Made by a program: the position numbers and the translations under genes | Notes under the pieces: model-generated | The model's input: the letters and a program-made list of their open reading frames with translations, nothing else | What the model was told of the DNA's origin: nothing | Database searches by the model: none | Assembly (NCBI GenBank): GCA_028874995.1 | Contig: JAPPGM010000091.1 | Span: 1-39,955 of the forward strand | Source: Gemmatimonadota bacterium | Lineage (GTDB): Bacteria; Gemmatimonadota; Gemmatimonadetes; Longimicrobiales; Gaopeijiaceae | Direction: 5' to 3' | Length of the DNA stretch: 39,955 bases | Shown: piece after piece, positions 1 to 10,354 of the stretch | Numbering within the stretch: the stretch's first letter is position 1 | Layout: each line of letters starts with the position of its first letter

Positions 1-272
1 CCACCAACTCGGTTCTGAATCCACGCTTGCCCAACCGGGGGCGTCCACATACAGGACACGCCACGTTGAACGTGGCGGCTGGCGAGGGGTGGCTGCGCCC
101 CCCCTTCAGATCCCCCCTGCTGGCGGAGCGGCGGGCGACCGGCTTGGCCATCCCCGAAGCCCGCGGCGCGTGTGCTCACGGCGCCACCCGCCCCGCATAT
201 ATTCGGTGCTACATCGCCGGTCGGGAATACCACTTTGGGCCAAGGCCACCTGTGTCACAGTTCTTTCCGGCG
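1..272. other. Non-coding flank with inverted-repeat hairpins
   Basis: No convincing gene is seen here; the open frames look like chance readings of GC-rich DNA. Two hairpins stand out. One is a perfect 9-bp inverted repeat, CGCCACGTT/AACGTGGCG, at 59-77. The other is a 9-position stem with one mismatch around 85-105 (GAGGGGTGG against the following C-run). Read on the minus strand, these lie downstream of the DUF262 gene. They resemble a sequence upstream of that gene near 2450-2500, which shares CCCCTCGCCAGCC followed by a different but equally perfect hairpin. Confidence 0.45.
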
Positions 273-2153
273 TCATTCCTCCCACACATCGCCATCCGGT
301 CCCGGCCAGATGCTTGCAACCACGCCCGCCAGCCATTCTCCGCGCGCGCGGATCGCATCCTCGTTCCACACAGTTTCCTCACGCAGCCGGGCGTTCAGAC
401 GCAAATGTGAGTGTTTCTTCAGCGCCGTTTTCTTCTCCTTCCAAGGAGCGTTGCCCATCGCCGGGTTCAGGCGTTCGCTGACCAGTGTGAGGTTCCCGAT
501 GCGATGAACGTGGCCCGCCCTTTCCTGCTCAAGAACGATCTTCTCACCCGGATCCGTGGCCTCGATTTCCCAATGCTGCTGCCACTTTATCGGAAGTACA
601 TGCTCGACCTGTAGCGCGTCGTACTTGATTGGCTTGACCGGTTCTCCCTTGTGGTAGTCGTCACTCTGGAGCCGCGTATCGACCGCACCCAGCAGGAGTC
701 GAAGCCGATACTGCGCGATTCCGCCGTATCCGTAGTACGTCGAGCTTCGGAACTGTCCGACCAACTCTTCGTCCGTCGGCCATGGATATCCGTGCGGTCC
801 CCGCCGAAGGGCTTCCACGATAGCTCGTCCTGGATGCGCGTCCGCCTCCTGAGCTGCCCGAAGGACTTCGGCGAACGCTTGGCCGTAAGCACGAGTCTGG
901 GCCTTGATCGCCATGCGCCGAATAACGAACGATTCGATGGCCCGAAAGGCCATCTCTCTCTCATCGGGCGGTAGCTTGCCAGCGGGTAGTGTCAGAAGCC
1001 ACAGGAGCACGGGCGTCGCAACCGTAACGTTGAGTCGATTGATCCGTTGGAACGAGAGGCGCTCCCCGTCTGTCGCACCCTCCATACGGCCGTGGAGCCT
1101 CTCATAGGCATCCGCGTAGCGGTCGAGTCCATGAAGCGCGCTGAAGGCGGTGGTGCCGCTGGAGTGCAGCCAACTTCGGAACTCTCCGTACAGGCGACCG
1201 ACGTTAATGACCCGACCGCGCTGCGCAATCAGCCAGTCTCCCATCAGCCAATCCTGTCTGGCCCTTCGGGCGTGTCCGGCACCGATCGACTCCCGCCACC
1301 AATCGTCGGCTTTGTCGAATCGAGCCCAGACCTCGTCGTAGAGCTGCTGCGGATCGTGACCCCTCGTCTGGGCGCGCATGAAGAGCAGATTCTTCACCAA
1401 GTCCGTCGCCGAGAGCGGAGTGTTGCGAGCGTTAAGCGCCTCGAAGATGACCTGCGCGTCGTCGACATTCTCTAGATCGATCACTACGAGCTTAACGAGA
1501 GCCAACAGCGTGGACACGAGAAGCGATGCCCTGCGTTGGACCGAATCCCCCTCGCCATACGGATCCTCGGGCAGACTCTCGTCCTCCAGAAAGCCGATCG
1601 CTTGACTGAAGAAGAAGTCCCGCGCGGCCGCGAACACCGAGTCGTCCGCCAGCCCGGGTTCCTCGCCAACCGCCCTGCGGTAACGTTCGGACTCCATTTG
1701 GCGCGGCCAGACTTTGTACAGATCGTCGCCCGCCCAGATCTCTTCGTCGTTCCGGGTCAGCTTCCGCAGTTGAGCCAGTTGGAGCCTTGACGCGCCCGCG
1801 CTTCGCAGAGCATCGAGCGTCCCCATCAACAGAAGTTGCAGCGTGATAAGACGTTGCTGACCGTCCACTACAAGCCGAGTCGTGATGTCGAGGGGACCCG
1901 TGGGGTACGGTTCCACGACGATAGCTCCCAGAAAATGGGGAGCTGCCTCGTCGTCGGACGTGGATGCTGGCTTGTCGGCGTGGTACGACGCCTGTCGCGT
2001 CTCTACCAAGCGCACAGCGGTCGCCTCAACATCGGTCCAGAGAGGCTCCCACTGCCTCTCGCGGCTCCAGACGTACGGGCGCTGGTACACCGGAACGACG
2101 AAACGGCGGTCGCCGTGAAGCACATCTTTCAGCGTGTGGGTATCAGCGTTCAT
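273..2153 (-). CDS. DUF262/DUF1524 (GmrSD-like) putative restriction/defence nuclease
   Basis: The 626-residue protein carries the two halves of GmrS/GmrD in one chain. The N-terminal DUF262 (ParB-like NTP-binding) domain shows VPVYQRPYVW at about 20-29, VDGQQRLITL at about 96-105 and the FEALNARNTPLSATDLVKN-type motif. The C-terminal DUF1524 domain is a His-Me-finger nuclease with EHVLP at about 517-521, GNLTL near 553 and N...WKEKK after it. Family members restrict modified (glucosylated hydroxymethylcytosine or phosphorothioated) phage DNA; the actual target here is unknown. The ATG at 2153 puts the DUF262 motif at the usual distance from the N-terminus; a GTG at 2219 would add 22 residues. 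No Ssp, Dnd, BREX or methylase partner is visible, so it is a solitary copy. Its codons use more A/T at third positions than the housekeeping genes to the right, which fits acquisition by transfer. Confidence 0.88.
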   Translation of the reverse strand: MNADTHTLKDVLHGDRRFVVPVYQRPYVWSRERQWEPLWTDVEATAVRLVETRQASYHADKPASTSDDEAAPHFLGAIVVEPYPTGPLDITTRLVVDGQQRLITLQLLLMGTLDALRSAGASRLQLAQLRKLTRNDEEIWAGDDLYKVWPRQMESERYRRAVGEEPGLADDSVFAAARDFFFSQAIGFLEDESLPEDPYGEGDSVQRRASLLVSTLLALVKLVVIDLENVDDAQVIFEALNARNTPLSATDLVKNLLFMRAQTRGHDPQQLYDEVWARFDKADDWWRESIGAGHARRARQDWLMGDWLIAQRGRVINVGRLYGEFRSWLHSSGTTAFSALHGLDRYADAYERLHGRMEGATDGERLSFQRINRLNVTVATPVLLWLLTLPAGKLPPDEREMAFRAIESFVIRRMAIKAQTRAYGQAFAEVLRAAQEADAHPGRAIVEALRRGPHGYPWPTDEELVGQFRSSTYYGYGGIAQYRLRLLLGAVDTRLQSDDYHKGEPVKPIKYDALQVEHVLPIKWQQHWEIEATDPGEKIVLEQERAGHVHRIGNLTLVSERLNPAMGNAPWKEKKTALKKHSHLRLNARLREETVWNEDAIRARGEWLAGVVASIWPGPDGDVWEE

Positions 2154-2292
2154 GGAGCGCCTTGGTCGTTTCGCACTGTCCACCTCTGCTTTGAGTTGGA
2201 TCCGAGGATTGCCGGCCACCGAGCTTCCGACCGGCAGACCGGAGTGATCAAGCGGGGTCGGGTCGCGGGGGATACGGCTAGGCGGTATGGGG

Positions 2293-2332
2293 CCGAGTCA
2301 GGGTTATCGGGAGCGAGTCAGGGTTATCGGGA
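2293..2332. repeat. Tandem 20-bp direct repeat, two copies
   Basis: CGAGTCAGGGTTATCGGGAG occurs at 2294-2313 and again from 2314 with near-complete identity through 2332, a 20-bp period. It lies about 140 bp upstream of the DUF262 start. It could be a repressor site for that gene or the subterminal repeat of a lost transposon (IS21-family elements carry multiple terminal repeats). No transposase is present to decide. Confidence 0.6.
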
Positions 2333-2455
2333 GGAACCTATGGAATGATGTGGGCGGGTGTGACTGAGCCGCAAGGCGAATAGCTGTTGGGCCGGTCGGA
2401 AGGGAGGGCAGGCCGCTACTCTCGAAAACCTCCGAGAACGCGAGCCTGTGGGGGT

Positions 2456-2645
2456 CGAGGGGGCGAAGCCCCTCGCCAGCCCGGTGTCCTACACCGGGTA
2501 CTCTGGCTTGACCACCGACGCGTGGCTCAAGCCAGCCCTGCGCCTGCCCGCGAACCCCGCCCCGTGCGCCGCCAGAGACGGCGGTGGACGGGCCCGTTGC
2601 GAGCGAGCTTGCGGTCGCGGCCCGGTCGTCGGTGGATCGTCCGAC
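2456..2645. other. Multi-hairpin structured intergenic element
   Basis: At least six hairpins follow each other: CGAGGGG/CCCCTCG around a GAA turn (2456-2475); a perfect 8-bp CCCGGTGT/ACACCGGG (2480-2498); a perfect 9-bp CTGGCTTGA/TCAAGCCAG with an inner CCAC/GTGG (2503-2535); CCGCC/GGCGG (2569-2584); CGGGCC/GGCCCG (2589-2624) enclosing TGCGAG/CTTGCG; and GTCGG/CCGAC (2628-2645). GC-rich DNA gives hairpins by chance, but perfect 8- and 9-bp arms in tandem are more than expected. It could be a structured RNA, the end of a mobile element or a REP-like cluster. No family was recognised. Confidence 0.5.
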
Positions 2646-2686
2646 CGCGACGGCCAACGCATCGGAGACAAGGTGGAGGGGCGGGT

Positions 2687-2917
2687 TCACCCCCCAACCT
2701 CTGGGAACCGTTCCGACTGCTCGCCCGCCGGAATCTGGCGGAGCTTCCGCACGGCGCGCGACACGTCGCGGGCATCGGAGCGAATCAGGAGCCAGTCGTC
2801 ACCGAACCGGGTCAGGCGGACCCAACACAACCCGTCCCCGGCTTCGTCGATGGCGACCACTTCGCGGGCGTGGATCTTCCGTCCGTATGCTTCGCCGATG
2901 ATGCCGCTGTCGCTCAC
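2687..2917 (-). CDS. Candidate small hypothetical protein (76 aa)
   Basis: An open frame with high third-position GC encodes a balanced soluble protein (motifs WVRLTRFGDDWLLIRSDARD and VRKLRQIPAGE). No domain was recognised. The GTG at 2917 is preceded by GGGGCAGG, a usable ribosome-binding sequence; a TTG at 2938 would add seven residues but has none. The frame is closed upstream at about 2954, so it is not the tail of a long gene. It sits between the structured element and the divergent beta-propeller gene. It may be a chance frame; confidence is modest. Confidence 0.35.
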   Translation of the reverse strand: MSDSGIIGEAYGRKIHAREVVAIDEAGDGLCWVRLTRFGDDWLLIRSDARDVSRAVRKLRQIPAGEQSERFPEVGG

Positions 2918-3054
2918 GTTATTGCCTGCCCCATCCAATGCTGCACGGACGCGCTACTGCCGAGGGGCCTCGACAGTTTTCCAGAGTAAGTCTAGTACTC
3001 CGCCCTCCACCCCGGAACATTGACCGTCGATCCGAGCGTCGGATATCGTTAGGC

Positions 3055-4284
3055 ATGAACCGTTTGGACCACATCACGCTGAAGCCAACTCCTCGTGACC
3101 GGCTTGGGCCGAAGCGTAACTGGCGAGCGATGATCGTCTTGGCGTCTGCCGGTCTCGGAGGCGGCGCGGACCAGGAGTGCGCCCAACTGGTCGAGCAAGG
3201 CCGCATCGGTTCACTCGACGGCGCGCCCGAATACTCGTTCACGGAGATCAACTCCATCGCCGTCACCGAGTCGGGAACGGTGTATGTGGCCGACGCGCAC
3301 GAGTCGTCCATCCGGGAGTTCGGGGCGGACGGGAGGTTCGTGCGCTGGATCGGTCGAGAGGGCGAGGGACCGGGCGAATTCCGATCAATCGCCGGTGTGT
3401 CGGTCCTGCCGGACGGTCGTCTGGCCGCTTGGGACCGGGGCAACCGAAGGATCACCGTGTTCTCCACGGATGGCGTGTATGAGCAGGCAATCAGAACCGA
3501 AGGGGTGAATCCACCATATCCCTTCGTGGACCGAGCCTTCCTCACGGATTCCGCCGGTCGGTACTACCTGCGGATCTTTGCCAATCCGCCGTCCCTTGCC
3601 CCCGATCAGAGCGACATGGCCACGGTGCAGTACGGCTACCTGCGCCTGTCGCCGGATGGCACCGTCCTTGACACCATCACGGCTCCCAAGGCGATGCCGC
3701 GCGGGCTGGCCGAACCCATCGTGATCCATACTCGGGCGGGTCATCGCAGCCCCTTCCCGGAGGAGGTATTGGACGCGCTGAGCCCGTTCGGCCACCTCGT
3801 GGCGGGCCACAACGCGACCTACGCGTTCTCGATTCTGGATCCTGCCGGAAGGATCGAAGTGGAGCAGGAGGGATTCCAGCCCGTAGAGGTGAAGGCCGAA
3901 GAACGTGCGGAGTGGCGGGCGCGGGTCGCGTTCGCCGAGCGGAGGTCCCGTATTTCGTTCCGGGACGTTCCGACGCGCAAGCCCGCGTATCGGGACCTGT
4001 GGGTCGATCTGGACGGAAGGATCTGGGTCCACCGATACTCCGAGGCGGTCGATACCGGCGAGCCGATCCCGGAACTGTGGCTCGACTACCTCGAAGGCGA
4101 CGAACCCCGGATCACATGGGCGGAGCCGTCGCTGTACGACGTGTACTCAGCGGATGGCCGCGTGCTCTACTGTGTCCAAGCTCCGGCCGATGCGGAAGTG
4201 GTGACGAGCCGCGGATCGCTTGTCTGGGCGATCCTGCGGGGTGCTTTCGACGAAGAGTACGTGGTTGGCTGGCGGATCGAATAG
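3055..4284 (+). CDS. 6-bladed beta-propeller (NHL-like) exported protein
   Basis: The 409-residue protein has repeated propeller-blade motifs: SIAVTESGTVYVADAHESSI, then GREGEGPGEFRSIAGVSVLPDGRLAAWDRGN and ITVFSTDG. The GxGPGEF.. followed by PDGR..AWDRGN pattern is typical of the 6-bladed beta-propeller proteins abundant in Gemmatimonadota and Bacteroidota, which are usually exported and of unknown ligand. The N-terminus contains a weak hydrophobic stretch (AMIVLASAGLGGG, about residues 25-37) ahead of a cysteine, so it may be a poorly predicted lipoprotein or signal-anchored protein. ATG 3055 was chosen; ATG 3130 would start directly at the hydrophobic segment. The frame is open upstream to 2938 with no family match. 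It is a stand-alone gene converging on the lipoprotein at 4494. No enzymatic function can be assigned. Confidence 0.82.
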   Translation: MNRLDHITLKPTPRDRLGPKRNWRAMIVLASAGLGGGADQECAQLVEQGRIGSLDGAPEYSFTEINSIAVTESGTVYVADAHESSIREFGADGRFVRWIGREGEGPGEFRSIAGVSVLPDGRLAAWDRGNRRITVFSTDGVYEQAIRTEGVNPPYPFVDRAFLTDSAGRYYLRIFANPPSLAPDQSDMATVQYGYLRLSPDGTVLDTITAPKAMPRGLAEPIVIHTRAGHRSPFPEEVLDALSPFGHLVAGHNATYAFSILDPAGRIEVEQEGFQPVEVKAEERAEWRARVAFAERRSRISFRDVPTRKPAYRDLWVDLDGRIWVHRYSEAVDTGEPIPELWLDYLEGDEPRITWAEPSLYDVYSADGRVLYCVQAPADAEVVTSRGSLVWAILRGAFDEEYVVGWRIE

Positions 4285-9310: not shown

Positions 9311-10354
9311 TCAGTTCCAGGACAGTCCGCGCAACTGTTCCACATCCAGATTGCCCCCGCTCAGCACACACACCGTCTTCGTCCCCGGAGCCGAGTCCAC
9401 CAACCCATCGAGCAGCGCCCCCACCGGCGACGCGGCAGCACCCTCCGTCACCAGCTTCGCCCTCGTCATCAGCCAGAGCACGGCGTCGAAGATCCGTTCG
9501 TCCGGCAGCGTCACGATCTCGTCCACGAATCGGGAGACGACCGAACAGGTGTTGTCCCCCACCCGCTTCACGCGCAGCCCGTCGATGATGCAACCAACCT
9601 CGTCGAGCACGATGCACCGCCCCGACTCCACGCTGCGCTGCATGGCCGGCGCCCCGGACGACTCGACCCCGATCACGCGAATACCCGGCTTCACCGACTT
9701 GACCGCCATCGCGATCCCGGAGATGAGCCCTCCGCCACCGATCGGCACGACCACCACTTCGGCCTCCGGGAACTGGTCCATGATCTCGAGCCCCACCGTC
9801 CCCTGCCCCGCGATCAGATCCGGGTCGTCGAAGGGGTGGATGTAGGTGAGCCCCTCCGTCTCGACCAGCTCGAGGGCCTTCTCGTTGGCCTCGTCCCAGA
9901 TGCTGCCGTGGAGCACCACCCGGGCGCCGTACCCCTTCGTGGCGGCGATCTTGGAGCGCGTGGCGTTCTCGGCCATGACCACCACCGCGCGCACGCCGTA
10001 GTGCCGCGCCGCGATCGCCACCCCCTGCGCGTGGTTGCCCGCCGACGAACAGATCACGCCCCTGGCCCGCTCCTCGCCGGTGAGCCGGGCGATCTTGTTG
10101 AGCGGCCCCCGCACCTTGTACGACCCGCCCCGCTGGAACAGCTCGGCCTTGAGCCGCACATCGAACCCGCACGCCTCGCTCAGCGAGCGGCAGGTCAGCA
10201 TGGGCGTCCGGTACACGTGCGGGGCGACGTGGCGGCGCGCGGCCTCGAAGTCGGCCAGGGTCAGGGTGAGACCGGGTATGCCCGCCCGCCGGATCCCGGC
10301 GCCATCCGCCTTCCCATCGCCCTCCGCCACCGCAACCCTCCCCTGCCCGTTCAC
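9311..10354 (-). CDS. PLP-dependent threonine/serine dehydratase (TdcB/IlvA short form)
   Basis: The 347-residue fold-type II PLP enzyme shows QRGGSYKVRGPLNK (Schiff-base lysine in SYKVRG), SSAGNHAQGVA, the phosphate-binding loop VPIGGGGL and a C-terminal VLSGGNLD. It would deaminate L-threonine to 2-oxobutanoate and/or L-serine to pyruvate; serine racemases share the same motifs. It lacks the C-terminal ACT-like domain of biosynthetic IlvA, so no isoleucine feedback is expected. The GTG start at 10354 overlaps the aldo-keto reductase stop (GTGA), which implies translational coupling. A second paralog of similar length is at 23522. Which amino acid it prefers cannot be read from the sequence. 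Confidence 0.88.
   Translation of the reverse strand: MNGQGRVAVAEGDGKADGAGIRRAGIPGLTLTLADFEAARRHVAPHVYRTPMLTCRSLSEACGFDVRLKAELFQRGGSYKVRGPLNKIARLTGEERARGVICSSAGNHAQGVAIAARHYGVRAVVVMAENATRSKIAATKGYGARVVLHGSIWDEANEKALELVETEGLTYIHPFDDPDLIAGQGTVGLEIMDQFPEAEVVVVPIGGGGLISGIAMAVKSVKPGIRVIGVESSGAPAMQRSVESGRCIVLDEVGCIIDGLRVKRVGDNTCSVVSRFVDEIVTLPDERIFDAVLWLMTRAKLVTEGAAASPVGALLDGLVDSAPGTKTVCVLSGGNLDVEQLRGLSWN

Follow-up and report, generated by a model that had tools for sequence, protein, structure and literature searches.

Near the left end of contig JAPPGM010000091.1 (assembly GCA_028874995.1), whose 39,955-nucleotide stretch constitutes the window analyzed here, a sponge-associated Gemmatimonadota bacterium carries a DUF262-type restriction gene between two related structured repeats. 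These repeats are very probably origins of transfer (oriT) of the ColE1/MbeA mobilization family. Exact matches to their shared block, CCCCTCGCCAGCC, occur in the window only at 77-89 on the minus strand and 2469-2481 on the plus strand, and the oppositely oriented pair described in the original prediction is thus present. In both copies the block is preceded by a G-run with GGGGGCG.AGCC and followed by a hairpin, which is GCCACGT/ACGTGGC at 60-76, then GTGTCCTG, in the left copy and CGGTGT/ACACCG at 2482-2497, then GTACTCTGG, in the right. The nic region of the right copy is intact (CTGGCTTG), and the left copy is interrupted ahead of the predicted nick. Neither copy has a mobC or relaxase gene of its own at the locus. 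The features are given below, where R1 denotes a covariance model built from eight copies of the repeat.

1 to 51, minus strand: end of an IS110-family insertion sequence (IS) interrupting the left oriT copy; the contig begins within the IS
52 to 115, minus strand: left predicted oriT copy, broken just before the predicted nick (...GTGTCCTG, then IS110); R1 match 77-115, inverted repeat 60-76
273 to 2219, minus strand: cargo gene for a GmrSD-type (DUF262 + HNH) type IV restriction protein; an alternative ATG start at about 2153 is possible
2450 to 2481, plus strand: right predicted oriT copy, G-rich hairpin GGGGGC-GAA-GCCCC and GCCAGCC arm; R1 52.8 bits, block order aligning with the ColE1 oriT
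2482 to 2497, plus strand: inverted repeat of variable sequence, CGGTGT-CCTA-CACCGG, presumed relaxase-binding hairpin (covariation, 21 distinct copies)
2498 to 2510, plus strand: nic region GTACTCTGG^CTTG, the nick being predicted to fall between 2506 and 2507 (CTGGCT conservation; ColE1 CTGGCTTA)
2505 to 2537, plus strand: downstream hairpin GGCTTGACCACC..GTGGCTCAAGCC(AGCC), opening the 'D0' flank common to many copies

A family of repeats with conserved pairing

The repeat pair is more than a chance occurrence. A degenerate pattern matches 25 places in the same genome, against 6 for a reversed control, with several copies at contig starts. The core consensus of the family reads GGGG(T/A)C-G-rGGGGC-nnn-GCCCC-yCGCCAGCC, followed by the hairpin and GTAn-GCTGGCT. 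A covariance-model search of related genomes, which had been suggested as a check, returned many copies, present in 22 of the 23 congeneric genomes at E ≤ 0.1 and numbering up to 32 per genome; at most 150 candidates were scored per genome, so copies may have been missed, and the weakest matches may be chance. Across the phylum, R1 matches at E ≤ 1e-4 occur in 20 of 150 genomes and 5 of 74 genera, and are therefore not a by-product of high G+C content. An exact pattern found 114 stretches among GTDB contigs, belonging to metagenome-assembled genomes or isolates of Gemmatimonadota, Gammaproteobacteria (including Halomonas and Vreelandella isolates), Acidobacteriota, Chloroflexi and Alphaproteobacteria, and to one Acidimicrobiales record. 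A few of these (e.g. Neoroseomonas, Oceanicola, Acidimicrobiales) are without the second hairpin and may be chance. Viral contigs gave no matches to the pattern, and as for tRNA attachment sites, the surroundings of 145 copies hold only two tRNA predictions at a distance of up to 3 kb.

It is the pairing of the hairpin, not its sequence, that is conserved. In 21 distinct copies with a short hairpin, 96.3% of cells are paired, compared with 28-44% when the partner is slid by 1-3 columns, a control that leans in favor of the structure because the latter was partly chosen from the tested sequences. Double-sided changes number 30 in the same copies and 10.0 ± 2.3 in shuffles, and the compensatory stem change first noticed between the two window copies thus extends across the family. 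A second class of copies has a longer hairpin. The suggestion of a family of structured repeats selected for pairing is therefore borne out, with the addition that the family is also linked to mobile DNA. Of 105 copies whose layout is intact, 104 carry CTGGCT downstream of the hairpin.

Probable identity of the repeats as transfer origins

Within the genus there are 89 matches to MobC (PF05713), 34 of them within 500 bp of a listed core. All 34 of these genes are divergent from the core, which has its G-rich end toward mobC at a distance of 177-250 bp. On the Halomonas sp. Y3 plasmid NZ_CP099976, an 85-bp core (9525-9609) lies 26 bp from mobC (9635-10036), and at five Halomonas/Vreelandella loci, including this plasmid, the start of a MobC-like open reading frame (ORF) is 26-30 bp from the core. 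The relaxase encoded after mobC matches PF03432 and the NCBIfam model relax_MbeA_E1 (NF047848; 5.3e-28, far under the curated cut-off of 500 bits), and is 30% identical to ColE1 MbeA (BLASTP, E = 2e-27). Its motif HRERGGGGHVHV, compared with HQDKGRLELN of ColE1, has H..H.H in place of H..E.N (L062 and relatives). Judged from its sequence, the enzyme is a relative of MbeA that lacks the HEN catalytic motif and falls outside the strict HEN subgroup.

The ColE1 oriT has the same block order, GGTGTC-GGGGCGCAGCCC-CCAG-GTAtaCTGGCTTAACCA, ending in TACTGGCTTAACCA, and its nick falls at CTGG^CTTA. The published ColE1 nick sequence is CTGGCTTA, with CTGGCT as its core (PMC5703827). Plasmid pSDH-1 carries CTGGCTTA in identical form 52 bp upstream of mobC, and its inverted repeats differ in sequence at a similar distance to nic (PMC5703827), which is the pattern seen in the present repeat family. 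In the proposed mechanism, the hairpins would serve as binding sites for MobC and the MbeA-like relaxase. The latter would then nick a single strand at CTGG^CT, and the cut strand would enter the recipient through the conjugation channel of a helper.

Several copies are modified around the predicted nick. Tandem 4-bp expansions (GGCTGGCTGGCTGGCT or CTTGCTTGCTTG) lie exactly at its predicted position at L001:43-75, L044, L078:17990, L193 and L194, and look as if they arose from repeated cutting and rejoining, or from slippage. In some putative oriTs (L068, L079, L126, L191, L288:1990-2080), the place of the nic side is taken by a second repeat, AAATCACGGCAGGAGATC..TAAGTC..CAGGACTGCACGATCCGC, which recurs at the left end of an island in G013 (described below), perhaps as an attachment site. 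A third, GGACTCCCCACCATTTGTCAACGG..GGGGAGTC, is joined to cores before the nick at L040, L049, L069 and L203; in L069 and L045 it sits between two direct cores about 250 bp apart.

Orphan copies and the helper

No MobC was detected within 500 bp of at least 117 of the 151 listed cores. With at least 13 copies, a single MobC match and no detected PF03432 relaxase, the window genome (G000) would therefore hold mostly orphan oriTs that need a helper and are likely mobilized in trans. The DUF262 gene would lie in an acquired chromosomal region with two oriT sites, the left broken by the IS110-family insertion and the right intact. Such a region may move as a hitchhiker of the 'iOriT' type; as neither window copy has its own mobC or relaxase, both would need to be supplied in trans.

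Several points weigh against this interpretation. The same counts for the window genome are among them; its single MobC, on contig C64, is near a further copy close to the contig end, and the relaxase may therefore be off the contig. A search of the 23 genomes with PF03135, the one VirB4 model used, found no VirB4 and so gave no candidate helper. DNA similarity to the ColE1 oriT is borderline, the score of 41.5 equaling the best of 300 shuffles, and the argument for an oriT therefore rests on the combined evidence. The ends of the DUF262 region are only partly resolved because the contig begins inside the IS. Lastly, nicking, excision of the region and mobilization in trans are, like the oriT function itself, processes that we infer.

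Transfer origins or element ends

The pair had also been proposed as possibly marking the ends of a mobile cassette, an idea that the evidence does not support: neighboring copies occur in all orientations, a copy at an empty site lies inside its island, and synteny at the window locus restarts at about 3005 and not at the right repeat. Fourteen pairs of neighboring copies are less than 20 kb apart: 7 in direct orientation, 4 facing outward and 3 facing inward. The idea that every gene is bracketed was tested and rejected. One of the four outward pairs is that of the window; each of the other three encloses a 2.3-2.7-kb element carrying a tyrosine recombinase. Presence and absence in relatives, the comparison originally suggested, was seen for a copy in G013, not for the window locus. 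This one clean empty-site case is a segment of about 13.6 kb (G013:C5) that contains one core; G009, G002 and G001 lack it, and their flanks join within about 10-57 bp. The core lies well inside, about 5.9 kb or more from either island end, and no exact direct repeats of at least 10 bp were found near those ends. Since the segment is larger than the oriT and has the oriT inside it, it is not bounded by the oriT there. Mixed orientations and an oriT inside an island thus make the bracket no marker of mobile-unit ends, and the copies are most likely transfer origins rather than element ends.

Much of this evidence also bears on the view that the repeats are recombination sites of a tyrosine recombinase, either attC-like or transposon ends, with the pair delimiting a DUF262 cassette. 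The recombinase element between two outward copies in three genomes, the P4-type integrases on the D0 side and the shuffling of flanks between copies on both core sides would suit such sites, yet MobC at a fixed divergent position with an MbeA-like relaxase beside copies, the occurrence of neighboring copies in every orientation, the preponderance of single copies and the copy inside the island at the clean empty site render this view very unlikely; the attC-like attachment-site reading was abandoned on the mobC and relaxase evidence. A proposal that retains transfer origins holds that outward pairs form small 'oriT cassettes', with the relaxase moving or shuffling single defense genes and integrases from one chromosomal site to another, and from phylum to phylum in the sponge microbiome, by crossover at the nick, and flanks on both core sides reshuffled as a result. 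This is considered improbable.

An intergenic G-rich hairpin followed by a covarying one could also be a structured RNA or a bidirectional terminator at operon ends, but this is scarcely credible where Rfam gives no match at the gathering threshold and no convincing weak match, no T-run follows the stem, and the placement relative to mobC is strict on plasmid and chromosomes. Extremely improbable, too, is a passive repeat resembling repetitive extragenic palindromes or miniature inverted-repeat transposable elements, spread by a transposase without any role in transfer; high copy number and frequent location near contig ends would be expected of it, whereas the observed copies are tied to a mobilization operon in distant phyla and preserve the nic sequence.

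A tyrosine recombinase family occurs in eight congeneric genomes, at some hundred places or more altogether (for example L288:11460-12794, L064:14737-16272 and L066:4157-5551), sometimes beside an oriT copy and mobC.

Cargo, insertion sequence and region boundaries

The cargo protein matches GmrSD_N (3.4e-30) and GmrSD_C (1.2e-23) of Pfam, as well as the PADLOC families Orf5 (1.5e-81) and mREase_IV (5e-61). It has no close relative in the genus, the best identity being 34%. Upstream of its gene, a near-perfect 20-bp tandem repeat, GAGTCAGGGTTATCGGG, at 2289-2328 is a possible operator.

Among the genes lying upstream of orphan cores are methyltransferases of types I, II and IIG, along with Hma-, DISARM- and BREX-like helicases. 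In the neighborhoods of orphan cores, 82 proteins matched 147 PADLOC families, all 25 of those listed at 1e-44 or better, compared with 74 proteins and 35 families, none below 1e-40, at evenly spaced control loci; the comparison is at the level of families, its controls come from two genomes, and one protein can match many families. These figures are suggestive of an enrichment of defense genes near orphan cores. Close to an oriT copy in a different genome (L126) lie a further DUF262 + HNH gene and one resembling a methyltransferase (from translation).

The left window copy ends at GTGTCCTG and runs straight into the IS110-family end at 1-51. This IS end, TGTGGACGCCCCCGGTTGGGCAAG, also adjoins an IS110 transposase (Transposase_20) in L070. 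The opposite IS end is at C158:1-51 and is followed by GGCTTAGGACC..AGCCAGCC, the apparent continuation of the left oriT, and this contig proceeds (GGCTTAGGACC..GGTCCTGAGCCAGCC) to a NUDIX-like gene and then to the C-terminal part of a P4-type integrase, both named from translation. A C158-IS-C189 join would restore an oriT with the nic region CTGGCTTA, one G being shared or duplicated. Three oriT copies are cut at the same spot by IS110-family ends (window 1-59, L078:201 and L070:3440), in each case after CTG and just ahead of the predicted nick, the IS ends being of at least two sequence variants. The same IS end also occurs at sites that are not oriTs.

Two further features lie to the right of the repeat pair.

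2617 to 2940, minus strand: separate high-copy module of about 300 bp with a small minus-strand ORF (...VRLTRFGDDWLLIRSDARDVSRAVRKLRQIPAGEQ...), in many congeneric genomes
3000 to 3010, no strand assigned: probable right-hand limit of the acquired region, synteny with G021 being taken up again at about 3005

A relative of the small ORF gave no Pfam match, and the ORF was rejected as part of the unit since it occurs elsewhere independently of oriT. Positions 3005-4284 of the window correspond to L104:8641-9919 of G021 at 87% identity, with no long alignable stretch leftward, and in G021 a sequence related to the C-terminal part of the integrase is located some hundreds of bases upstream of the point of restart. 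The window therefore probably holds the right part of an acquired region; the P4-type integrase on C158 is probably joined to it via the IS, the right boundary lies near 3005, and an att repeat was not established.

Significance and comparison with known systems

If this interpretation is true, the 32-nucleotide motif and its covarying hairpin provide a handle for mobilizable islands in genomes without recognized conjugation genes, and defense genes of sponge symbionts in several phyla would use one common transfer signal. How such islands move could then be tested with a single oriT, a single MobC and a single relaxase.

The closest comparison is the oriT-mbeC-mbeA module of ColE1 (MOBP5/HEN), which shares the block order, the nic core CTGGCT(TA), the orientation to mobC, and the combination of MobC (PF05713) with an MbeA-like relaxase. 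In contrast to ColE1, the present copies are chromosomal, many per genome and strongly variable in hairpin sequence, and the relaxase has H..H.H where MbeA of ColE1 has H..E.N. Integron attC arrays likewise consist of structured sites with variable sequence and conserved pairing beside accessory genes; however, an IntI/attI array was not seen, nor, by eye, the RYYYAAC/GTTRRRY attC layout, and the site here adjoins mobC and a relaxase. The staphylococcal pWBG749 family, which belongs to a different element family, concerns plasmids and not chromosomes. Its oriT mimicry offers a likeness in the diverged oriT subtypes on elements without transfer genes (PMC8136818). Mobilizable genomic islands with an iOriT are integrated regions that have an oriT and are without relaxase or mating channel, and the copy inside an island with empty sites in relatives resembles them; here, many orphan oriTs are found per chromosome, and excision and helper are putative (PMC11389934). 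ColE1 oriTs and oriT-only islands (PMC11389934) are thus already known. As far as found in the open-licence literature, what is new is that many chromosomes of a single genus hold at least ten such sites, that the sites extend to several phyla, that the relaxase has H..H.H in place of HEN, and that defense genes lie nearby.
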